Source: Anaeromyxobacter sp. Fw109-5
Lineage (GTDB): Bacteria > Myxococcota > Myxococcia > Myxococcales > Anaeromyxobacteraceae
DNA: 64,000 nucleotides
NCBI RefSeq assembly: GCF_000017505.1
Contig: NC_009675.1
Span: 4,406,501 to 4,470,500, forward strand
Direction: 5' to 3'
The notes below the pieces were generated by a model. The model did not search any database. It was not told where the DNA came from and saw only the letters and a list, made by a program, of their open reading frames with translations. Shown here piece by piece: positions 45,746 to 58,949 of the stretch. The translations under genes were made by a program, and so were the position numbers. The first letter of the stretch is position 1. The number at the start of each line of letters is the position of its first letter.

Positions 45746-46960
45746 ATGGTCCCCGCGGCGCGCCTTCGCCTCTTCTACTTCCTCTATTACGGCACGGTCG
45801 GCACGAACCTGCCGTACTTCGCCGCGTACCTGCGCGGCCTCGGCTACACGGGCGAGCAGATCGGGACCGTCCAGATGCTGCCGTCGCTGGCCGCCCCCGC
45901 CGTCGCCATCTCCTGGGCCAGCTGGGCCGATCGCACCGGCTCGCCGGCCCGCGCCCTGCGCCGCGCCGCGCTCGTGGCGGTCTCCGCCGCCGCGCTGCTC
46001 CCGTTCGTGCGCTCGCCGCTCGCGATCGGCGCCGTCCTGCTCCTTCAGGCGCTCGGCGAGCGCGCGGTCGTACCGCTCGTGGACTCCGTCTCGCTGGAGT
46101 GGTCGCGCGCGCGCCCGGGGACGTCCTACACCGGGCTGCGGCTGTTCGGCTCGCTCGGCTTCGTCGCGATCGCGCTCGCCGTCGGCAGCGCGCTCGCCGC
46201 CCGGGGCGAGCGCCCGGGCGACGTGCTCGTCCCCGCCACCGTCGCGCTCGGCGTCGCGGGCTACGCCCTCGTCGCGCGCACCATCCCCGCCGCGCCAGCC
46301 CACCCCGGCGCCCGGCCCGGTCTCCGCGACCTCGGGCAGCTCGCCCGCGAGCCGCGGCTGCTGCTCTTCCTCGGCGCCTGCGCCCTGCACTGGGCGGCGT
46401 GCGCGCCCTACCACCTCTTCTTCGGCGTGCTCGTGCGCGACCGCGGCCTGCCCTCCGACGTCACCGGCCTCGGCATGGGCGCGGGCGTCGCGGCCGAGAT
46501 CGGCGCGCTGCTCCTCTTCCCGCGGCTCGCGCGCGGCCTCTCGCTCCGCCGCCTCCTCTCGGTCGCGTTCCTCGGCAGCGCGGTGCGGTGGGTGCTCGTC
46601 TCGCGCGCGGAGGCGGCGGGCGCGATCGTCGCCCTCCAGCTCCTGCACGGGCTCACCTTCGGGCTGTTCTGGGGCACCGCCATGGACGCGATGGCCGCGT
46701 TCGTGCCGGGACGGCTCCGCGCCACCGGCCAGGCGCTCTTTGCCGCGACGGTGTTCGGCGCCGGCAACGCGCTCGGCTACCAGCTCTCCGGCGCCGGCTA
46801 CGATCACTACCGCTCGGCGGCCCCGCTCTTCGCCTGGGCGGGAGGCCTGGAGGTCGTGGCGCTCGTGTTTGCGCTGTCGTTTCTCGGACGTAGACCCGAA
46901 CGGAGCGAGCCCCGATCGGGCCAGAGGACGGGCGCCTCCCCTGTGCGGCAGAATGACTAA
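45746..46960 (+). CDS. Major facilitator superfamily transporter
   Basis: The 404-residue protein has about 12 transmembrane helices. It begins LRLFYFLYYGTVGTNLPYFA, like the MFS_1-like/3-phenylpropionate-permease-type group, with SWASWADRTGSPARALRRAA as the loop 2-3 motif A equivalent and GLRLFGSLGFVAIALAVGSA in helix 5. The substrate is unknown. The C-terminal ~23 residues (RRPERSEPRSGQRTGASPVR) are hydrophilic and read through a sequence resembling the end of a dispersed repeat (GTGCGGCAGAATGAC), so the natural stop may have been lost. Start ATG 45746 is 5 bp from the divergent GAF gene start. Confidence 0.88.
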   Translation: MVPAARLRLFYFLYYGTVGTNLPYFAAYLRGLGYTGEQIGTVQMLPSLAAPAVAISWASWADRTGSPARALRRAALVAVSAAALLPFVRSPLAIGAVLLLQALGERAVVPLVDSVSLEWSRARPGTSYTGLRLFGSLGFVAIALAVGSALAARGERPGDVLVPATVALGVAGYALVARTIPAAPAHPGARPGLRDLGQLAREPRLLLFLGACALHWAACAPYHLFFGVLVRDRGLPSDVTGLGMGAGVAAEIGALLLFPRLARGLSLRRLLSVAFLGSAVRWVLVSRAEAAGAIVALQLLHGLTFGLFWGTAMDAMAAFVPGRLRATGQALFAATVFGAGNALGYQLSGAGYDHYRSAAPLFAWAGGLEVVALVFALSFLGRRPERSEPRSGQRTGASPVRQND

Positions 46961-47153
46961 TCAAGGGTGTGACGGCCAAGTGGCCGCTCGCAGGCGATCG
47001 GGATGGTCGGGCCACCATCCCATGCGATGGCGGGTTCTCGCGGACCGCGGTCGGGCCTGGGGCGCCGGTCACACGTGACACATCTGACACACCGCAGCAT
47101 CCGGCTCCTCCTCTGAACACCCACCGGAGTCCCGTCCCGCCCAGGAGGCGACG

Positions 47154-47585
47154 ATGGGTTTCCTGAGCAGCGTCTTCGGAGAGAAGAAGGACACGCATCC
47201 CGCGCTCGACCGCGACAGCGTCGCGGGGCGCCGCATCGCGCAGCGGCAGCTCGAGCTCGAGTCGTTCGTCCGCAAGGTGAAGGACCGGATCGAGCTCGTC
47301 CCGGCACAAGACGCCACCTACGTCTTCATCGGCAAGCCGCCTGGCAGCTTCGGCGTGGCCTGGCTCGCCGACGGCCGCGAGCAGAGCATGAAGACGCTCA
47401 TGCAGGAGCGCGGACTCTCCGCGGCCAACGTCCAGATCCTGTCGGACCAGCTCCGCGACGTGTACAGCGCGCACATGAACGAGGAGCGCTACCAGGCGGA
47501 CATCGCCGGGAAGAGCGTCCTCGTGACGCCATCGGACGCGCTCGCGGCGGACGTGCGCCGGATCGTCGACGCCGTCGCGAAGTGA
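47154..47585 (+). CDS. 143-residue soluble protein, unknown function
   Basis: The protein begins MGFLSSVFGEKKDTHPALDR; residues about 20-55 are a charged helix (IAQRQLELESFVRKVKDRIE). The middle is a small alpha/beta region (ATYVFIGKPPGSFGVAWLAD, then REQSMKTLMQERGLSAANVQ) and the C-terminus a helix (DALAADVRRIVDAVAK). No signal peptide, membrane segment or known motif is seen. AGGAGG 6 nt before the ATG makes the start secure. Direct repeats TGACACA-TC-TGACACA at about 47075-47090 lie upstream and could be an operator. A strong hairpin follows. Not recognised. Confidence 0.72.
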   Translation: MGFLSSVFGEKKDTHPALDRDSVAGRRIAQRQLELESFVRKVKDRIELVPAQDATYVFIGKPPGSFGVAWLADGREQSMKTLMQERGLSAANVQILSDQLRDVYSAHMNEERYQADIAGKSVLVTPSDALAADVRRIVDAVAK

Positions 47586-49028: not shown

Positions 49029-50867
49029 TCAGAATTCCGTCTTGAAGTGGAACGCCCCCGCGTCCTGCCAGCTCTTCACGGCCCGGAGCGCGTCCTTGAG
49101 GCGGGTGCGCTCGAGCGGCGTGAGCTCGGCGAGCGCGACCTGGTTCGTCACCGGGTCGCCCGCGGCGATGCGGCGGAGCTGCAGCCGGAGGCGCAGGCCG
49201 ATGAGGTAGCGGTAGGCCTCCGCGACCCGCGTGGCGACCTCCTCGTCCACCTTGCCGGCGCGCTGGGCGCCGTCGATCCGCTCCAGCGTCCCGCGCGCGC
49301 GCAAGCCGGCCTCGAGGCCGTAGCAGCGCGCGAGGAAGACGATGGGCGAGATCCCGTGGGCCTTCAGGTCCACCACGGACGAGGTGCCCTTGAGCCGGAG
49401 CAGCAGGAGCGGCGGGGGGCGGAAGTCGAGCGCGGCCTTGGCGAGGAAGCGCAGGAAGACGGGGCGCCCCGCCGCCTCCGTGAGCGCCGCGTCGAGGGGG
49501 TCGAGCCCGAGCGTGCCGGCCACCCGGCGGAAGTCGAAGAAGATGGACGCCTCCAGCAGCGCCTGGGGCGCCGGGGCGTCGATCCAGCCGCGGAAGCGGC
49601 GCGTCCACTCGGAGAGCGGCCCGTGCCAGCGCTTCGCCATGTAGCCGCCGGGGCACTCCGGGAACCCGGCGGCGACGAGATCCTCGTTCACGCGCGCGGC
49701 GAGCGCCGCGTACCACTCGCGAGCGGCCTCCCCCTCGTCGGCGTACACGAGCGCGTTGTCCTGGTCGGTGAGCAGGGTCTGCTCCATCCGCCCCTCCGAC
49801 CCGAACGCGATCCAGGCCCACGGCGCGGGGGCGGCCCCCAGGTCCGCCTCGGCCCAGCGGAGGATGCGGTGCACGAGCGCGTCGTTGAGGCGCGCCACGA
49901 ACCCGGAGATGGTGGACGCCTCGAGGCCGCCGGCCAGGAGGACGGCGGTCATCTCCGCGACCTTGCGGGCGTAGCCGGGGAGGCTCTCGCGCGAGGGGAG
50001 CCGCTCGACGCTCCGGAGCACCGCGACCGGGCCGGACGCGCTGTGCTTCAGGAGGTCTCCCGCCGTCACCACGCCGACGATCTCGTCCCCGCGCACCACC
50101 GGGAGGTGGTGCACGCCGGCGTCGAGCAGCGTGCGCCAGGCCTCGTAGATGGGGGTGCCCACCGTGACGGTGCGCAGCGGACGCGAGACGATGCGCGTGA
50201 GCGACGTCTCGGGCCCGAGATCGTCGGCGAGCACGCGGTTGCGGAAGTCGCGATCCGTCACGATGCCGGCCGGCGCGCCGCGCACCAGCACCGACGAGAT
50301 CGACGCCTCGCGCATGATCCGCGCGGCGTCCCGCACGGTGGACGTCTCCTCCACCCAGACCGGCGGGCGCTTCACGAGCTGCTCCACCGCCCCCGAGACG
50401 TCCGCGCGGAAGGTCGCGACCGGCGACTGCTCCAGGCTCGCCCGCAGCCGCTCCGCGAGCCCGGCGGCGAAGTGGCCCGCGAAGCTGGCGTCGCCGAGCA
50501 GCGCGCGGAAGGCGGCGCCGGGCAGCCGGTACGCCACGAGGTCCTCCTCCACGACCACGTCCAGCGTCGCCTCGCCCGAGACGAGCGAGGTGTAGCCGAA
50601 CGTCTCGCCCTCCTCGAGGAGCTGGAGCGTCTGGCCGTCGCGCTCCAGCCGCACGGCGCCCTTGCGGATGACCCACAGGTGCTCGAGGGGCGCTCCGCCG
50701 ACGCGGACGAGCTGCTTCCCGGCCGGCTCGAACACGACCTCGACGTCCCGCACCGCCTCGTCGAAGAGCTCGCGGCGGAGCGTCGCGAAGGGCGCGGTCG
50801 CGCGGAGGTACGCCACCGGATCCACGGTCGTCGTCGGTTCGGCCACGGGGACCTCGCTCGGAATCAC
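49029..50867 (-). CDS. cNMP-binding / CBS / DUF294 nucleotidyltransferase-like protein (copy A)
   Basis: A 612-residue three-module protein. A cyclic-nucleotide-binding-like domain (about 20-135; GAVRLERDGQTLQLLEEGET, FGYTSLVSGEATLDVVV) is followed by a CBS pair (about 160-285; ISSVLVRGAPAGIVTDRDFR, HHLPVVRGDEIVGVVTAGDL). A DUF294 nucleotidyltransferase-like domain (about 300-450) has FGSEGRMEQTLLTDQDNALV, with the GSxxR and DxD residues. A DUF294 C-terminal domain follows (about 460-605). The architecture is that of GlnD-like signal-dependent nucleotidyltransferases, but the target is unknown. GTG 50867 is the longest start. Third gene of the operon. Confidence 0.9.
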   Translation of the reverse strand: MIPSEVPVAEPTTTVDPVAYLRATAPFATLRRELFDEAVRDVEVVFEPAGKQLVRVGGAPLEHLWVIRKGAVRLERDGQTLQLLEEGETFGYTSLVSGEATLDVVVEEDLVAYRLPGAAFRALLGDASFAGHFAAGLAERLRASLEQSPVATFRADVSGAVEQLVKRPPVWVEETSTVRDAARIMREASISSVLVRGAPAGIVTDRDFRNRVLADDLGPETSLTRIVSRPLRTVTVGTPIYEAWRTLLDAGVHHLPVVRGDEIVGVVTAGDLLKHSASGPVAVLRSVERLPSRESLPGYARKVAEMTAVLLAGGLEASTISGFVARLNDALVHRILRWAEADLGAAPAPWAWIAFGSEGRMEQTLLTDQDNALVYADEGEAAREWYAALAARVNEDLVAAGFPECPGGYMAKRWHGPLSEWTRRFRGWIDAPAPQALLEASIFFDFRRVAGTLGLDPLDAALTEAAGRPVFLRFLAKAALDFRPPPLLLLRLKGTSSVVDLKAHGISPIVFLARCYGLEAGLRARGTLERIDGAQRAGKVDEEVATRVAEAYRYLIGLRLRLQLRRIAAGDPVTNQVALAELTPLERTRLKDALRAVKSWQDAGAFHFKTEF

Positions 50868-50912
50868 TCCGGACCTGGCGACGGCGGCGCCCGGGCGGCG
50901 CGCCGCCTCCGC

Positions 50913-52709
50913 TCAGACCAGGTCCGTCTGGTAGTGGTACGTCGCCTTCTCCTGCCATCGTCGGATGGCGCGGAACGAGTCCTTCACCCGGGTGCGCTCC
51001 GCGCCGGAGAGCTCGTCCAGGCGCACGATGTCGAGGAGCGGCCGGTGCTCGGAGAACGCGCGGAGCTGCAGGCGCAGGCGCAGATCCAGCAGGAACCGGT
51101 AGGCCTCGGACACGGAGGCGTGGAGGGCCTCCGCCATGAGGCCGGCCGCGCGCGCCGCCTCGAGCCGCTCGAGGGTGCCGCGGGCGGTGCTCCCCACCTC
51201 GACCGCGTAGCACCGCGCGAGCATGACCACCGGCGCGATCCCGTGCTGCTTCAGGTCGACCTCGGCGCCGCCGCGCAGGCGCAGGACCATCCCGGGCGGC
51301 GGCGTGAAGCGCAGCGCCTCCCGCGCCAGCGACCGGGCGAGGTGACGGGTGCGGGCGCCGCGGGCGAGCGCGGTCTCGAGGGGCGCGACGTCGAGGGGAC
51401 CAGCCGCGCGGCGCAGGTCGTAGAGGATCGCGGCGGCGGCCGGGCGGTGCTCCACGCACGCGTCGATCTCCTCCTTCCACCAGGAGATCGTCCCGTTCCA
51501 CCGCCGCGCCATGCGGCCCCCGGGGCAGGCCGGGAACCCCGCCGCGACGAGGTCGGCGTTGAGGTGCTCGGCGAACGCGTGGAACCACGCGCGGTGCGGC
51601 GCGCCGGCGTCCTCGTAGACGAGGGCGTTGTCCTGGTCGGTGAGCAGCGTCTGCTCCATCCGGCCCTCCGAGCCGAGCGCGACCCACGCCCAGGCGCCGG
51701 GCGCTGGCCCGAGGTCCGCCTCGGCCCACCGGACCAGCCGGGCGAGCAGCGTGTCGTTCAGCCGCGCGACGAGCCCGCCGATCCGCGGCGCGTCGACGCC
51801 GCCCGCCACGAGCGCCGCGGCCATCTCGGCGACGCGAGCGGCGTAACCGCGGAGGCTGTCGCGCCCGGCGAGCCGCTCGACGGCGCGGAGGACGGCGACC
51901 GGCCCCTGGGCCGAGCAGCGCAGGAGGTCGCCCGAGGTGATCACCCCCGCGATCTCGCCGTCGGTCACCACCGGCAGGTGGTGGATGCGCGCGTCGAGGA
52001 GCGCCGTCCAGGCGGCGTGAAGCGGCGCCTCCGAGGGGACGAGCTGCAGGGGCCGCGTGAAGACCTCCGTCACGGGCGTCGCCGGCGGGAGGCCGTCCGC
52101 GAGCACGCGGTTGCGGAAGTCGCGGTCGGTGACGATCCCGGGCGGATCCGTGCGCACCAGCACCGAGGAGATGCGGTGCTCCCGCATCACCCGCGCCGCG
52201 TGCGCCACGGTGGCGTCGCGCTCGACCCAGACCGCCGGCCGCACCACGAGCCGCCCGACCTCGATCGAGAGATCCGGCTGGCCCGAGAACGCGGGCGCGT
52301 GCGCCAGGCTCGACTTGAGCCGGTCGGCGAGCCCGACGGCGAAGTGCCCGGCGAACGGGGCGTACCCGAGCAGCCTGCGGAAGTCGGCGCCCGGCAGCCG
52401 GTACGCGAGGAGATCCTCGTCGACGATCACGTCGAGCGTCGCGCGCCCGCTGATGAGCGAGGTGTAGCCGAAGCACTCGCCCTCCTCGAGGACCTGCAGC
52501 GTCTGGCCGTCGCGCTCGAGGCGCACCGCCCCTTTTCGTACGACGTACAGGTAGTCGAGGGGACGCCCTCCCGCCGACGTGAGGCGCGTACCCACCGGAT
52601 AGAAGCCGACCTCCAGGTTGCGCGTCGCCGCGGCGAACTCCGCCGCCGGCAGCGCCTGGAACGGGGGGATCGATCGCAGGTAGGCGATCGGGTCGATCGC
52701 GACGGCCAT
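50913..52709 (-). CDS. cNMP-binding / CBS / DUF294 nucleotidyltransferase-like protein (copy B)
   Basis: This 598-residue paralogue of the next gene has the same order of domains: cNMP-like (about 10-125, FGYTSLISGRATLDVIVDED), CBS pair (about 150-275, ISSVLVRTDPPGIVTDRDFR and HHLPVVTDGEIAGVITSGDL), DUF294 (about 300-440, LGSEGRMEQTLLTDQDNALV) and DUF294_C (about 450-595). Catalytic-type residues are retained, so both copies may be active. Divergence is spread over the whole length, indicating an old duplication. TAAGCT lies 9 nt before ATG 52709. Gaps to neighbours are 51 and 45 bp, so C, B, A and the exonuclease are one operon. Confidence 0.9.
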   Translation of the reverse strand: MAVAIDPIAYLRSIPPFQALPAAEFAAATRNLEVGFYPVGTRLTSAGGRPLDYLYVVRKGAVRLERDGQTLQVLEEGECFGYTSLISGRATLDVIVDEDLLAYRLPGADFRRLLGYAPFAGHFAVGLADRLKSSLAHAPAFSGQPDLSIEVGRLVVRPAVWVERDATVAHAARVMREHRISSVLVRTDPPGIVTDRDFRNRVLADGLPPATPVTEVFTRPLQLVPSEAPLHAAWTALLDARIHHLPVVTDGEIAGVITSGDLLRCSAQGPVAVLRAVERLAGRDSLRGYAARVAEMAAALVAGGVDAPRIGGLVARLNDTLLARLVRWAEADLGPAPGAWAWVALGSEGRMEQTLLTDQDNALVYEDAGAPHRAWFHAFAEHLNADLVAAGFPACPGGRMARRWNGTISWWKEEIDACVEHRPAAAAILYDLRRAAGPLDVAPLETALARGARTRHLARSLAREALRFTPPPGMVLRLRGGAEVDLKQHGIAPVVMLARCYAVEVGSTARGTLERLEAARAAGLMAEALHASVSEAYRFLLDLRLRLQLRAFSEHRPLLDIVRLDELSGAERTRVKDSFRAIRRWQEKATYHYQTDLV

Positions 52710-52760
52710 CCGCGGAGGAGCTTAGCACGCGCCCCCGCGGCGCCCTCCGCCCCGGAGCGG

Positions 52761-53762
52761 TCAGCCGAGGGTCTGGTAGTGGTACGCCGCGCGGGCCTGC
52801 CAGCGCTTCACCACGCGGAAAGCGCGCAGCAGCCCGGCGCGCTCCGGCGGGGCGAGCGCGTCGAGCCGCACCCGGTTGGCCGGCGGCTCCCCGGCCTCGA
52901 GCGCCCGGACCTGCGCCCGCAGCTGCAGCCCCAGCAGGAACCGGTACGCCTCCCCGATCTCGGCGTGCGCGTCGGCCGAGAGCACCCCCGCGCGCCGGGC
53001 CGCCTCCAGGCGCGCGAGGGTCGTGCCGGAGGTCGCGCCCGCCTCCAGGCCGTGGCAGCGCGCGAGGAAGACGAGCGGCGAGAGGCCGTGCCGCTTCAGA
53101 TCGACCTCGGCGCCGCGCCGGAGCGACAGGACGAGCGGCGAGGGCGGGCTGAGCTCGAGCGCCTCGATCGCCAGGAAGTGGAGCAGGCGCGACGCGCCGG
53201 CGCCGCGGGCCAGCTCGGCGTCGATCGCGGCGAGGGGGAGCCGCCCGGCGAGGCGGCGGCGGTCGAGCAGGATCTCCGCGTCGTGCGCGTCCGGCTTGTC
53301 CACGCAGGTGGCCGCGCGCCGGACGAACCGCGAGAGCGGCCCGTGGTCGTGCTTCGCCATGTGGCCGCCGGGGCACTCCGGGAACCCCGCCGTCACCAGC
53401 GCCTCGTTCACCCTCTCCGCGAGCGCCGCGTACCACGCCCGGGACGCGTCCCCCTCATCGGCGTACACGAGCGCGTTGTCCTGGTCCGTGAGGAGCGTCT
53501 GCTCCATCCGGCCCTGCGATCCCCAGGCGATCCACGCGAACGGCGCGGGCGGTGGGCCGAGCTCCGCCGTCCCCCAGGTCACGAGCCGGCGCAGGAGCGC
53601 GTCGTTCACTCGCGCGACGACGCGGGCCACCTCCGGCCCGTCGACGCCGCGGCGGAGCAGCGCCGAGACGATCCGCGCGACGCTCCGCGGATGGCCGGCC
53701 AGCCCGGCCCGGGAGCGGAGCCGCGCCGGGCGCAGGCAGGCCGCCGCGTCCGTGAACGCCAT
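52761..53762 (-). CDS. DUF294 protein lacking the cNMP and CBS modules (copy C)
   Basis: The 333-residue first gene of the operon keeps only the catalytic-type half: WGSQGRMEQTLLTDQDNALV at about residue 83 and the DUF294_C domain (VDLKRHGLSPLVFLARCHGL, then YRFLLGLQLRAQVRAL). The first ~30 residues (MAFTDAAACLRPARLRSRAG) do not match the regulatory modules of copies A and B. It could be a natural catalytic-only form or a duplicate with a deleted N-terminus. Position 1 in the operon and TATTCT 6 nt before the ATG argue that it is expressed as is. Confidence 0.85.
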   Translation of the reverse strand: MAFTDAAACLRPARLRSRAGLAGHPRSVARIVSALLRRGVDGPEVARVVARVNDALLRRLVTWGTAELGPPPAPFAWIAWGSQGRMEQTLLTDQDNALVYADEGDASRAWYAALAERVNEALVTAGFPECPGGHMAKHDHGPLSRFVRRAATCVDKPDAHDAEILLDRRRLAGRLPLAAIDAELARGAGASRLLHFLAIEALELSPPSPLVLSLRRGAEVDLKRHGLSPLVFLARCHGLEAGATSGTTLARLEAARRAGVLSADAHAEIGEAYRFLLGLQLRAQVRALEAGEPPANRVRLDALAPPERAGLLRAFRVVKRWQARAAYHYQTLG

Positions 53763-53832: not shown

Positions 53833-54312
53833 ATGCGAACGAATCGGGTGCGCGTGGGGCTCTACGGGCTCGCCTTCCACGCGGTGGTGGTCGCGGCCTA
53901 CCTGGGCGTGGCGCGCTCCAATCGTGCTCCCATCGACGCCCGATTCTGGACGGTCGGCGCGCTTTCCCTCTTCGCCGCCTCATTCATCGTGTATGCCCTG
54001 CTCGTCGCGCCCTACGTCGCGCGCCGGGTTCAGAAGCGCGGCGTCGCGTTCCTCGACGCCGCCATCGGCATGGCGGCCGAGCCCGCGGTCGCGATCCTCG
54101 CCACCTTGCTCTACTCGGTGGTCTCTGCCGGGCCGGCGCTCCGCGAGGGGGCGGGCGCGTTCGCCGGAGCGCTCGGCGGCCTCACCTACGTCGGGCTCCT
54201 CTGGCTGGCGGCGAACTTCGCGACCCAGATCCTGGTCCTCGGAAACGCGGCGGGGTTCATCGGGTTCATCCTGCTGAAGCTCCTCGCCGCCCGCGCCGCG
54301 CGCACCGCGTAG
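53833..54312 (+). CDS. Four-helix membrane protein, unknown function
   Basis: The 159-residue protein has four predicted helices: VGLYGLAFHAVVVAAYLGVA, FWTVGALSLFAASFIVYALL, VAILATLLYSVVSAGPAL and GGLTYVGLLWLAANFATQIL running into GFIGFILLKLLAA. The loop RRVQKRGVAFLDAAIGMAAE is conserved-looking but not a known motif. The start ATG 53833 has no Shine-Dalgarno; the TACAAT box is 6 nt upstream. It lies between the DUF294 operon (divergent) and the nhaA module. No function can be assigned. Confidence 0.7.
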   Translation: MRTNRVRVGLYGLAFHAVVVAAYLGVARSNRAPIDARFWTVGALSLFAASFIVYALLVAPYVARRVQKRGVAFLDAAIGMAAEPAVAILATLLYSVVSAGPALREGAGAFAGALGGLTYVGLLWLAANFATQILVLGNAAGFIGFILLKLLAARAARTA

Positions 54313-54416
54313 CGCGCGCCGCCCGCGAGAGCGGGGGATGACCCGCGCGGGCTCGGCGCCGGTGCGCCCAAGCAGTCGCCGCCGTGAGCCGCGCTTCCCC
54401 GTCTCGCGCGGTCTCG

Positions 54417-54445
54417 TTGACACGGTCGACGGGTGGCCGTAACTG
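54417..54445 (+). promoter_or_regulatory. Promoter of the nhaA leader RNA
   Basis: TTGACA (54417-54422), 17-bp spacer, TAACTG (54440-54445). Identical boxes and spacing recur at 56131-56159. Predicted start about 54451, right at the first base of the conserved leader. Confidence 0.8.
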
Positions 54446-54449
54446 AAGC

Positions 54450-54590
54450 ACGGGTGCGGCGCCGGCCGGAAGCCGGCGCCGCAGGCATCCGGAGCAGTCG
54501 GGCCGCTGCTTCACGGTCGGATGGGTCCCGTCGGCGACTCGCCGCTCGTGAGACGGCAGTCGTCCTCCGTCTCCTCGAGGAGCGAGTCGC
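54450..54590 (+). ncRNA. Structured nhaA leader, candidate nhaA-I / Li+ riboswitch (copy 1)
   Basis: ACGGGTGCGGCGC, a variable hairpin (GCCGGC around GGAA), GCAGGCATCC, then GGAGCAG and CTGCTTC forming a 7-bp stem around TCGGGCCG, then ACGGTCGG (to about 54520). A second copy with the same conserved blocks but a different variable hairpin lies at 56165-56245: covariation-like evidence for RNA. It is followed by a long hairpin (54534-54542 with 54582-54590, inner stem 54550-54556 with 54567-54573) that could be the expression platform. Position before nhaA fits the nhaA-I motif, reported to sense Li+. The motif match is from memory. Confidence 0.75.
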
Positions 54591-54645
54591 TCGACGCGAT
54601 CGTCTTCGTGACGCCGCTCGCGGCTCACGCAACGGAGGCACGAGG

Positions 54646-56019
54646 ATGGGACCGACGCGGCCGACGCCGCCCCGGACGCCAGCCGTCCCGCTGTTCGCCG
54701 CGGTCGTCCGGCCGCTCCAGGCGTTCCTTCGCCTGGAGGCGGCGAGCGGGATCGTCCTGCTGAGCTGCGCGGTGGCCGCCCTCGCGCTGGCGAACTCGCC
54801 GCTCTCCGACGAGTACCGCGCGTTCTTCGACACGACCCTCGGGGTGCGGGTGGGGCCCCTCGCGGCCGAGTTCAGCCTGGCGATGCTCGTGAACGACGGG
54901 CTGATGACGATCTTCTTCTTCGTCGTCGGGATGGAGATCAAGCGCGAGCTGGCGGTCGGAGAGCTCCGCACGCTCCGCCAGGCGCTCCTGCCCCTCGTCG
55001 CGGCCCTCGGCGGGATGGCGGTCCCCGCCGCGATCTTCCTGGCGTTCAACGCGGGGACGCCGGCCGCCGCAGGGTGGGGCGTCCCGATGGCGACGGACAT
55101 CGCCTTCTGCGTGGGCGTCCTCACCCTGCTGAAGGCGCGCGTCCCGCACGCGCTCGTGGTGTTCGTCACCGCGCTCGCCATCTTCGACGACATCGGCGGG
55201 ATCCTCGTGATCGCCCTGTTCTACGGGCACGGCCTCCAGCTGACGTGGCTGGCGGCCGCGGGCGGCCTGACCGCGGCGCTCGCGCTCATGTCCCGCTCCT
55301 ACGTACGCAGCCTCGCCGCGTACGCGCTGGTGACGGCGGCGCTCTGGTACGCGCTCCACCACGGCGGCATCCACGCGACCATCGCGGGCGTCATCGCCGG
55401 CCTCGCCATCCCGGCGCGCGCGCGCGTCTCGCCGCGCGCGGTGCTCCGCGGGGTCGCCGACCACACGGCCGAGCTCCTCCGCGCCGCGGAGGACGAGGAC
55501 CTCGACAGCGCCGCCGTCCTGGAGCTCGAGGAGCGCATCGAGGACGTCGAGTCGCCGCTCGGGCGCTTCGTCCACGCGCTCCACCCCTGGGTGGCGTTCG
55601 CGATCATGCCGGTGTTCGCGCTCGCCAACTCGGGGGTGGACCTGCGCGCCCTCGAGCCCGCGCAGCTCGTGGGCCGGCTCGCCGTCGGCACGGCGCTGGC
55701 GCTCTTCGCCGGGAAGCTGGTGGGGATCTTCTGCTGCACCTGGATCGCGGTGCGCTCCGGCCTCGCGCCGATGCCCGGAGGAGCCAGCGCGGCCAAGCTC
55801 ATCGGGGTCTCCGCGGTGGCCGGGATCGGGTTCACGGTCGCCCTGTTCATCGCGGGGTTGGCGTACGGCGGCGGGACGCAGCTGCTGGACGAGGCGAAGG
55901 TGGGGATCCTCGCCGGATCGCTGGTGTCGGGCGTCGTCGGGGCGCTGGTCCTCCGCCTCACCCCGCGCGTGTCCTCGCGCTCGCCCGCGCCCGAGCTCTC
56001 GGTGGCCAGCGCGAGCTGA
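54646..56019 (+). CDS. nhaA: Na+/H+ antiporter NhaA
   Basis: Electroneutral-pH-regulated type Na+(Li+)/H+ exchanger of the inner membrane. The 457-residue protein has the NhaA fold: FFFVVGMEIKRELAVGELR, VPMATDIAFCVGVLTLL, and VTALAIFDDIGGILVIALFY with the two adjacent Asp residues of the ion site, then AAKLIGVSAVAGIGFTVALF with the conserved Lys/Gly helix. A cytoplasmic insertion between the helix bundles (about residues 265-320) is acidic (AEDEDLDSAAVLELEERIED) and longer than in E. coli. GGAGG about 8 nt upstream supports ATG 54646. It is transcribed from the riboswitch-type leader at 54450. Confidence 0.95.
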   Translation: MGPTRPTPPRTPAVPLFAAVVRPLQAFLRLEAASGIVLLSCAVAALALANSPLSDEYRAFFDTTLGVRVGPLAAEFSLAMLVNDGLMTIFFFVVGMEIKRELAVGELRTLRQALLPLVAALGGMAVPAAIFLAFNAGTPAAAGWGVPMATDIAFCVGVLTLLKARVPHALVVFVTALAIFDDIGGILVIALFYGHGLQLTWLAAAGGLTAALALMSRSYVRSLAAYALVTAALWYALHHGGIHATIAGVIAGLAIPARARVSPRAVLRGVADHTAELLRAAEDEDLDSAAVLELEERIEDVESPLGRFVHALHPWVAFAIMPVFALANSGVDLRALEPAQLVGRLAVGTALALFAGKLVGIFCCTWIAVRSGLAPMPGGASAAKLIGVSAVAGIGFTVALFIAGLAYGGGTQLLDEAKVGILAGSLVSGVVGALVLRLTPRVSSRSPAPELSVASAS

Positions 56020-56130
56020 GCGGCGGGACCTTCGCGGCGGCGAGCCCCACGGCGGGGACGGCCGCGACCGGCGTCCCCCTTCGAGGGGCTCGCACGCCCG
56101 GCAGCGCGCGCGTGCGGCGCTCGCCGGCCT

Positions 56131-56159
56131 CGTTGACAACCGGGTGATCGGGTCCTAAC
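56131..56159 (+). promoter_or_regulatory. Promoter of the second leader RNA
   Basis: TTGACA (56131-56136), 17-bp spacer, TAACTG (56154-56159). The spacer sequence differs from that at 54423-54439 but both boxes are identical. Confidence 0.8.
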
Positions 56160-56164
56160 TGACG

Positions 56165-56245
56165 AGACGGGTGCGGCGCGTACGGACGCGCAGCAGGTAC
56201 CGGAGCAGTCGGGCCGCTGCTTCACGATCGGGCTGGGTCGCGGCA
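56165..56245 (+). ncRNA. Second copy of the nhaA-type leader RNA
   Basis: ACGGGTGCGGCGC, a variable hairpin (GCGT-ACGG-ACGC), GCAGGTACC, GGAGCAG-TCGGGCCG-CTGCTTC and ACGATCGG. Conserved blocks equal those at 54450-54520 while the hairpin arms differ but still pair, which supports a real RNA structure. It precedes the small membrane protein at 56364. 56246-56363 contains GTCCC/GGGAC-type hairpins but no clear terminator. Confidence 0.75.
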
Positions 56246-56363
56246 GCGACGCGCCGTTCGTCCAACCGGGCCGCCGCGTCCCGTCGGGCAGCGTCGAGTC
56301 GTGTCGCCCTCCCACTCCGTGCCGGAGCGGTCCCTCGTGCGGGACGCTCCCGTGGAGCGGACC

Positions 56364-56873
56364 ATGTCGACCGCGCGCGTCGTCGCGGATGTTCCTCTGC
56401 ATCGGGCGCGAGCCCGACGTCACGATCTGCTGGTGGGAGCCACCGTCGCCGGCGTGCTCGCGGGAGGCGCCGCGATGGCGTGGGTCGCGGCGAGCGCCGC
56501 GCTCGCGGGCTTGCCCTCCTGGCGCCCGCTCGCCGTCGTCGCCGTGACGCTCCTCGGTGAGGAGGCGGCGAACGGAGGCGCGGGCCCCGTCCTCGGGGGC
56601 CTGCTCCTGTGGACCGGGGTCTCCACGGCGCTCGCGCTCGGCTACGCGGCGATCGTCCCCCGGGACTTCTCCTTCGCGTCGTCCGCCCTGGTGGGGGTGG
56701 CCTACTCGTTCGTCGTGATGGCGCTCATGACGACGACGGTGCTCCCTCGCGTCAACGCGCTGATGCGCGCGGAGATGGCGGAGATCGGCGGGGCGTGGGT
56801 GATCGCCTACGCCGTGTACGGCCTGGGGCTCGGGCTCGTCCCCCGCCTGCGACGGCGCTGGCTGGCCATGTAG
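56364..56873 (+). CDS. Small membrane protein under the second leader RNA
   Basis: The 169-residue protein has four predicted helices (LVGATVAGVLAGGAAMAWVA, VLGGLLLWTGVSTALALGYA, ALVGVAYSFVVMALMTTTVL, GGAWVIAYAVYGLGLGLVP). Charged residues are few: LGEEAANGG after the first region and NALMRAEMAEIGG before the last helix. No known transporter family is recognised. Start ATG 56364 has GGAG 7 nt upstream; an ATG at 56301 would start inside the leader. Its promoter and leader copy those of nhaA, so the product is likely linked to the same cation signal: perhaps a channel, an exporter accessory or a membrane stress protein. Confidence 0.7.
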   Translation: MSTARVVADVPLHRARARRHDLLVGATVAGVLAGGAAMAWVAASAALAGLPSWRPLAVVAVTLLGEEAANGGAGPVLGGLLLWTGVSTALALGYAAIVPRDFSFASSALVGVAYSFVVMALMTTTVLPRVNALMRAEMAEIGGAWVIAYAVYGLGLGLVPRLRRRWLAM

Positions 56874-56983: not shown

Positions 56984-57895
56984 ATGACGACCCGGCGACC
57001 GCAGCTGAAGGTGACGCTCGTCGGCGACGATCTCTCCGCCGGTGCCGGATCCGCCCTGCGGAGATCCGCCGTGCTCCCCGAGGTGCGCGGGCGCGTGCTG
57101 CACGTCCTGCGGGTGCTGCCGGGAGGACACCGGAGCGCTCGAGGCGAGGAGGCGGTCGAGGAGGCCCGCGTCGCTCTGCGGGAGCGCGCCGAGCAGATCG
57201 TCGGTCAGGCGCGCCTCGACGAGCTGCCGAGAGGCGCCCTCCGCGCCACGGTCGTCGAGGGAGAGCCCTTCGTGGAGCTCATCCGGCACGCCCGCGCGGT
57301 CGACGCAGACCTCGTCCTCGTGGGCGCTCACGCGCGGAGGACGTGGCGGGACGGTGTCGTCGGCACGACCGTCGAGAGGATCATCCGCAAGGGAGACACC
57401 CCCGTGCTGGTCGTGAAGCGGCCGCCCCGCAACGCCTACCGGAGGGCCGTCGCGGCCATCGAGGCGTCGGATGCCGCGCGGCGCGTCCTCGATCTCGCGG
57501 TCGCGCTGCTCCCATCCTCGGGCGCGAAGCTCACGGCGTTGAGCTGCTTCACGGTGCCGTTCGAGACGGAGATCTCCGGCGGGGTCCGGGAGGTGGCCGC
57601 TCGGACGCGCCGGGAGTACCTGCAGGAGCGCTCTGCGGCGTGCCAGCGTCTCCTCTCGAGGATCGAGGCGCTGCGCACGGTGACGCTGGAGCTCGCGGTG
57701 GTGCACGGGGATCCCCGCGTCGAGGTGCTCCGCCGCATCGAGCGCGAGCGCGCCGATCTGCTGGTGCTCGGGACCCACGCGCGCTCGGGGCTCGCGCACG
57801 CGCTGCTCGGCAGCACGGCGGAGTGGCTCATCCGCGCCGCCCCCTGCGACGTCGCCGTCACCCGACCCGCGCGCTTCGCGTTCGAGCTGCCGTGA
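56984..57895 (+). CDS. Tandem universal stress protein (two Usp domains)
   Basis: The 303-residue protein has two UspA domains (about 8-145 and 155-300). Each ends with the Usp signature: ADLVLVGAHARRTWRDGVVG, TTVERIIRKGDTPVLVVK in the first, and ADLLVLGTHARSGLAHALLG, STAEWLIRAAPCDVAVTR in the second. The G-x2-G-x9-G(S/T) ATP loop is best kept in the second. Usp proteins bind ATP and act in stress survival; location next to ion exchangers suggests a link to ion stress. It starts at ATG 56984, 110 bp after the membrane protein; the CaCA exchanger follows 49 bp downstream. Confidence 0.9.
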   Translation: MTTRRPQLKVTLVGDDLSAGAGSALRRSAVLPEVRGRVLHVLRVLPGGHRSARGEEAVEEARVALRERAEQIVGQARLDELPRGALRATVVEGEPFVELIRHARAVDADLVLVGAHARRTWRDGVVGTTVERIIRKGDTPVLVVKRPPRNAYRRAVAAIEASDAARRVLDLAVALLPSSGAKLTALSCFTVPFETEISGGVREVAARTRREYLQERSAACQRLLSRIEALRTVTLELAVVHGDPRVEVLRRIERERADLLVLGTHARSGLAHALLGSTAEWLIRAAPCDVAVTRPARFAFELP

Positions 57896-57944
57896 GCGCC
57901 ATGCGCGCCGCGGTGCCGACTCGTTGGCCGCGGAGGGGCGCGCG

Positions 57945-58949
57945 ATGACGTGGGCCGTGCTCTTCCTCGCCAGCGCGGCCGTCGTGGTCCTCGCCGGGAC
58001 CGTCCTCTCGCGCCAGGGCGACGCCATCGCGGAGCGGACCGGCATCGGGAGGGTGTGGATCGGCTCGATCCTGCTCGCCGGCGCGACCTCGCTGCCCGAG
58101 CTCGCGACGGACGTGTCGGCGGTGCGCCTCGGCGCGGCGGACCTGGCGGCGGGCGACCTGTTCGGCAGCAGCATGGCGAACATGCTCATCCTCGCGGTGA
58201 TCGAGCTCGTGGCGCCCCGCCGCCAGGTGTTCCGCAAGGTGACGCTGGATCACGCGCTCGCGGCGTGCCTGGCCCTCGTGGTGACGGCGTCGGCGCTGGT
58301 GCTCGTCGTGCTGCGTCCGTCGGGCGCGTGGCTCGGCGTGGTCCCCCCCTCCACGCCGCTGCTCGTGGCCTACGCGCTCGGGACCCGGGCCGTCTACCGG
58401 CACGTGAGCCGCGCGGGCGACCGCGAGGGACCGCCCGCGATGGTGATCCCGCGGGCGAGCGCCGCGCCGCCGCTGGGTGCGGCCCTCGCGCGGTTCGCCG
58501 CCGCCGCGCTCGTGATCCTGCTGGCGTCGCCGCTCTTCGCCCTGTCCGCGAAGGAGATCGCCGTGCTGACCGGGCTCGGCGACAGCGTCGTCGGCGCGTG
58601 GCTGGTCGGCCTCTCCACCTCGCTGCCGGAGCTCGTCACCTCGCTGGCCGCGGTGAGGATGGGCGCGCTGGATCTCGCGGTCGGCAACCTCTTCGGGAGC
58701 AACGGGTTCAACATGGCCATCTTCCTCGCGCTCGACCTGGCGAGCCCGGGCGGATCCGTGTTCGCCTCGCTGAGCCCGGTCCACGTCGTCACGGGATTGT
58801 TCGGGGTCCTGCTCACCGGCCTCGGATTGGCGGCGATCGTGTACCGCGCCGAGCGGCGCTTCGCGATGGTCGAGCCCGACGCGCTGCTCATCGTGGTCGC
58901 CTACTTCGTCGGGTTGGGGGCCATCGGGCTCTACGCCGCGAGGATCTGA
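57945..58949 (+). CDS. CaCA-family cation exchanger (Na+/Ca2+ antiporter-like)
   Basis: The 334-residue protein has two inverted alpha repeats: GATSLPELATDVSAVRLGAA with LFGSSMANMLIL, and GLSTSLPELVTSLAAVRMGA with LFGSNGFNMAIFLALD. The Glu in each SLPEL and the Asn in each FGSxxxNM are ion ligands of the family. About ten transmembrane helices. It exchanges Ca2+ or another divalent cation for Na+/H+. A Cys-free short central loop is present (residues 150-170). GGAGGGG upstream supports ATG 57945. It is part of the cation group with NhaA and Usp; a terminator for the opposite gene lies after it. Confidence 0.92.
   Translation: MTWAVLFLASAAVVVLAGTVLSRQGDAIAERTGIGRVWIGSILLAGATSLPELATDVSAVRLGAADLAAGDLFGSSMANMLILAVIELVAPRRQVFRKVTLDHALAACLALVVTASALVLVVLRPSGAWLGVVPPSTPLLVAYALGTRAVYRHVSRAGDREGPPAMVIPRASAAPPLGAALARFAAAALVILLASPLFALSAKEIAVLTGLGDSVVGAWLVGLSTSLPELVTSLAAVRMGALDLAVGNLFGSNGFNMAIFLALDLASPGGSVFASLSPVHVVTGLFGVLLTGLGLAAIVYRAERRFAMVEPDALLIVVAYFVGLGAIGLYAARI

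Follow-up and report, generated by a model that had tools for sequence, protein, structure and literature searches.

Three nhaA-I (Li+-I type) RNAs in a sodium-transport island of Anaeromyxobacter sp. Fw109-5 precede nhaA and members of two uncharacterised gene families

What do RNAs of a lithium riboswitch family control when they lie among sodium transporter genes, and to which ion do they respond? The locus that raises this question, a 64,000-nt stretch of the Anaeromyxobacter sp. Fw109-5 genome (hereafter the window), had been described in an initial annotation as carrying two promoter-plus-riboswitch-like leaders of the nhaA-I/Li+ family, one before nhaA and one before a membrane protein gene, which together formed a two-member regulon derived from one module duplication. 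Rfam 15, run over the whole window, recovers both leaders with the nhaA-I covariance model (RF03057; gathering score 37 bits), at 54452..54511 (+ strand, 47.1 bits; aptamer 1) and 56169..56222 (+ strand, 41.3 bits; aptamer 2), together with a third copy at 46965..47020 (+ strand, 45.9 bits; loop U, P1 GU...GC; aptamer 3), and all three pass the gathering score. The rest of Rfam, including the nhaA-II model that the annotation had proposed to run beside nhaA-I, gives no match at cut-off in either leader or anywhere else in the window. Judged by sequence, the two RNAs noted earlier are members of the nhaA-I/Li+-I family; the riboswitch class is already known, and the regulon members appear to be new. 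As had been claimed, the arms of the variable hairpin (P1) differ between aptamers 1 and 2 and still pair, with one internal mismatch in aptamer 2. A search of the entire genome (5,277,990 bases) finds exactly these three RF03057 copies, dispersed across one 9.3-kb island of Na+ transporters. Aptamer 1 lies in the leader of the cation-transporter gene nhaA, and copies 2 and 3 precede other genes. Because aptamer 3 leads an unrelated soluble protein, the regulon comprises at least three units, and the two-member view does not hold.

The nhaA gene (54646..56019, + strand, 457 aa; PF06965 E 7e-136, 453 bits against a cut-off of 23.5; TIGR00773 377 against 254) is the only NhaA gene of the genome. 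It follows the remainder of leader 1 (54512..54645, + strand), which contains a conserved element past P2 (a P3-like hairpin) and the Shine-Dalgarno sequence GGAGG. Other island genes encode an NhaD-like protein, DUF4212, a VC_2705 symporter (TIGR03648), DUF294 proteins, and an exchanger; on the - strand of the window, at 49029-53762, three consecutive DUF294/CBS-type nucleotidyltransferase genes stand between the soluble gene and nhaA. Behind leader 2 lie genes for a 169-aa membrane protein with four long predicted helices plus short ones (56364..56873, + strand), a universal stress protein (Usp; 56984..57895, + strand; PF00582), and a Na+/Ca2+ exchanger family protein (57924..58949, + strand; PF01699). 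Since the three share a strand and are separated by gaps of only 110 and 28 nt, it is plausible that they are carried on one transcript, and leader 2 may drive all three. The window membrane protein passes no family cut-off, and some of its homologs match DUF6789/DUF1440 weakly. One homolog in another genus (G017:C26:946584) is likewise preceded by an RNA of this kind, whose leader is homologous, so the pairing of RNA and membrane protein is not an accident of one genome. Such an RNA precedes the membrane protein family in only 2 of the 24 genomes that have the family, however, which counts against our preferred explanation. By eye, an exchanger-like protein is recognized directly behind such an RNA in genome G034, and probably in G068 as well.

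The shared promoter reported for the two leaders is located at 54417 and 56133. Copy 1 of the promoter-like TTGACA-N17-TAACTG element (54417..54446, + strand) ends 6 nt ahead of aptamer 1, copy 2 (56133..56162, + strand) has its TAACTG at 56156-56161, and both end 6-7 nt upstream of a conserved GGGTG; a strict promoter scan that requires T as the last -10 base omits both sites. A -35/-10-like pair is found 6-9 nt before the aptamer in about 10 leaders of Anaeromyxobacteraceae-like loci, and a promoter score of at least 8 is reached by 16% of all leaders versus 1.7% of shuffled upstream sequences. Leaders 1 and 2 align over ≈230 nt, starting ahead of the promoter and reaching well beyond the aptamer, with a score of 169 against 54 for the best of 200 shuffles. 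Given this extended homology and the common promoter, the simplest reading is that the two leaders are products of one duplication of a promoter-plus-leader module, the part of the earlier proposal that the alignments fit. Outside the aptamer, leader 3 has no likeness to leaders 1 and 2 (its scores of 41 and 30 fall among those of the shuffles). The next-closest leader is the one ahead of the membrane protein homolog in G017, which scores 120 and 103 against the two window leaders; the module ahead of the membrane protein is thus common to another genus, and the idea of a recent, local duplication is weakened.

To place these RNAs within their class, we compared them with their relatives. All three window RNAs have G-C as the first P1 pair, a loop U, and no terminator, the combination of the Li+ type, and the sister type found in relatives has C-G as the first pair and a loop C. 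Among 61 distinct Myxococcota RNAs, 53 combine a G-first pair with loop U and six a C- or U-first pair with loop C, leaving one exception of each kind; pair and loop base thus vary in step (Fisher p = 8.7e-7, a value that ignores shared ancestry). In four leaders of the Anaeromyxobacter relatives G017 and G015, the P2 3' arm can pair with a downstream segment that is followed by a T-rich tail, and three of these terminator-like leaders fold with z of -6.2, -3.9, and -4.4. Loop C and the terminator-like stem occur together at G017:C4:109968, G017:C4:112703, and G015:C20, with short U-runs in two of them; three C-type leaders in G140 have no clear terminator. Published Na+-II riboswitches are rare nhaA-I variants, known from Desulfobulbus propionicus, with a loop C and a terminator; they occur in Deltaproteobacteria ahead of genes of unknown function (PMC9646797). 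The fourth of these leaders, near a contig end (L099, G015:C78:3711-3766), has a U-first P1 pair and loop U along with a P2-arm stem and T-rich tail, and this stem with loop U resembles the published C54U mutant that answers several ions (PMC9646797).

The gene behind aptamer 3 encodes a 143-aa soluble protein (47154..47585, + strand; 133 nt behind the aptamer) that belongs to no Pfam or NCBIfam family. A search for its structural relatives with a model of pLDDT 88 gave only candidates that we rejected (Foldseek best E 0.02, TM <0.2; second-look Z at most 3.3). A profile built from eight members and run on 195 Myxococcota genomes finds nine loci, one of them a 43-residue fragment. At 7 of the 9, an RF03057 RNA lies 51-133 nt upstream on the same strand, a count that includes the G015:C20 RNA just below the gathering cut-off (35.7 bits) and loci that are partly non-independent (three in G140, two in G017). 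The G140:C54 RNA likewise falls just below the cut-off, at 35.2 bits. Five of the seven RNAs are Na+-II-like and two are of the Li+ type. The loci without an RNA are a paralog in the source genome (3678729) and the one in G039. In G015 and G017, the module reads DUF4212, VC_2705-type symporter, small membrane protein, soluble gene, and DUF294 protein; paralog 3678729 has the identical order without the RNAs. A narrower alignment of the family, searched against the genome collection, returned only three loci, all already known, and the plasmid collection yielded no match. Because the relatives' soluble genes mostly stand behind the sister RNA that resembles Na+-II, the soluble protein is probably part of sodium-dependent solute uptake, in modules with DUF4212, the VC_2705 symporter, and DUF294.

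How the window RNAs might act on their genes is less readily seen in the leaders themselves. No terminator-like site is predicted in 46850-47200 or 54300-56450, no stem on the P2 arm leads into a U-run in the window leaders, and Shine-Dalgarno sequestration finds no support, the ribosome-binding site being predicted as equally accessible in free and P2-forced folds. The start codons lie 133-141 nt downstream of the aptamers, a spacing that counts against the explanation we favor. Published Li+-I riboswitches sense Li+, switch genes on as Li+ rises, and activate nhaA (PMC9646797), and we assume the same ON direction for the window RNAs. On this basis, we consider it probable that the three RNAs form one ion-responsive regulon in the sodium-transport island, with Li+ as the most likely ligand and expression turned on by it. 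Aptamers 1 and 2, whose leaders would derive from the duplicated module, begin near the predicted transcription start; a bound small alkali cation, for which Li+ is the likeliest candidate, would stabilize P1 and P2 and turn expression on. NhaA, once induced, would expel the ion. Induction would extend to the 143-aa soluble protein and to the four-helix membrane protein, whose transcript probably continues into the genes for Usp and the Na+/Ca2+ exchanger.

The identity of the ligand is one point on which this reading can be challenged. Li+ is favored by the sequence type of the RNAs, sodium physiology by their neighborhood and by the sister RNAs found in relatives. Within the nhaA-I superclass, the window RNAs could instead represent a branch that responds to Na+ and could sense this ion in vivo, making the island a sodium-homeostasis regulon. 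The adjoining Na+ transporter genes would suit such a role, as would the orthologous island of G017, where Na+-II-like RNAs precede the DUF4212-symporter and soluble genes. Moreover, the C54U change gave a Na+-II RNA a broader response that takes in Li+, Na+, and NH4+ (PMC9646797), so loop U by itself is no proof of Li+ selectivity. Yet in all three RNAs the two diagnostic positions are those of the Li+ type and a terminator platform is absent, and validated Li+-I RNAs needed about a tenfold higher concentration for Na+ binding (PMC9646797); we therefore regard Na+ sensing as unlikely, albeit a serious competitor. A good deal less probable is that only the nhaA leader functions and that copy 2, as a duplicate in decay, and copy 3, as a relic, leave the membrane and soluble proteins unregulated. 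Aptamer 2 does score lowest and has the P1 mismatch, and such loci do decay, as at G010:C1, where the sequence behind the RNA looks like no more than the end of nhaA. Against decay, the conserved core bases are all intact in copies 2 and 3, and the membrane and soluble protein associations both recur in other genera.

The nhaA-I RNAs of other Myxococcota stand before a varied set of genes. Locus L084 (G140:C99, 4000-21159) has six nhaA-I matches within 15 kb, one of them ahead of a STAS-like gene followed by genes recognized by eye as HflK/HflC-like, and two more matches lie on other G140 contigs. Small membrane proteins of ≈110-126 aa, grouped by eye as a second recurrent type, directly follow such RNAs in four genomes (L084:11154-11495, L083 in G157, L080:3204-3578, and L088 in G163). 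At L070 and L027 (G193), the RNA is followed by a tiny open frame of ≈38 codons with one hydrophobic stretch, and the two frames are mutually similar (SWMERHA.../TWMERNG...). At L100, L101, and L102 (G004, G007, and G012), the RNAs precede genes that by eye resemble trehalose-6-phosphate synthase, an association of this RNA class named in PMC9646797. Finally, at L096 (G010:C1:52134-52184, - strand), only the apparent C-terminal end of nhaA follows the RNA, probably as a deletion remnant.

Two recurrent uncharacterised gene families stand behind these RNAs, and the regulon exceeds the earlier two-member view. Few genes beyond transporters are found behind alkali-ion riboswitches, and the discoverers took such non-transporter genes as clues to what lithium damages (PMC9646797); the recurrent soluble family is a concrete candidate of this kind. 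The coupled change of pair and loop suggests, as a hypothesis, that two sites let a 55-nt RNA discriminate between Li+ and Na+. We tentatively suggest, as a possibility short of even odds, that the soluble family is served by two sister sensors, one Na+-II-like with a terminator and one Li+-I-like without, that the coupled change of P1 pair (C-G versus G-C) and loop base (C versus U) is their specificity code, and that the soluble protein is a previously undescribed component dedicated to alkali-cation physiology.

Among known systems, the Na+-I riboswitch (DUF1646 motif) has a similar two-stem architecture and sodium-related genes (PMC9337991), although it has no Rfam match in the window or in six scanned loci. 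The relatives' sister RNAs ahead of the soluble gene resemble the Na+-II riboswitch in their loop C (our alignment column being matched by inference to D. propionicus position 54), and the deltaproteobacterial lineage and the association with genes of unknown function agree as well; a terminator-like stem is seen in the four G017 and G015 leaders, one of which has loop U. The window RNAs differ from the Na+-II riboswitch in having loop U and a G-first P1 pair and in lacking a terminator. The closest counterpart is the Li+-I riboswitch, that is, the nhaA-I motif RF03057 (White et al. 2022, PMC9646797), with which the window RNAs share the aptamer sequence, the two-stem structure, the loop GUCGGGCC, and, for copy 1, a position immediately ahead of nhaA. 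Unlike that precedent, the Anaeromyxobacter island holds three copies dispersed over 9.3 kb, two of which lead a membrane protein and a member of the soluble family.
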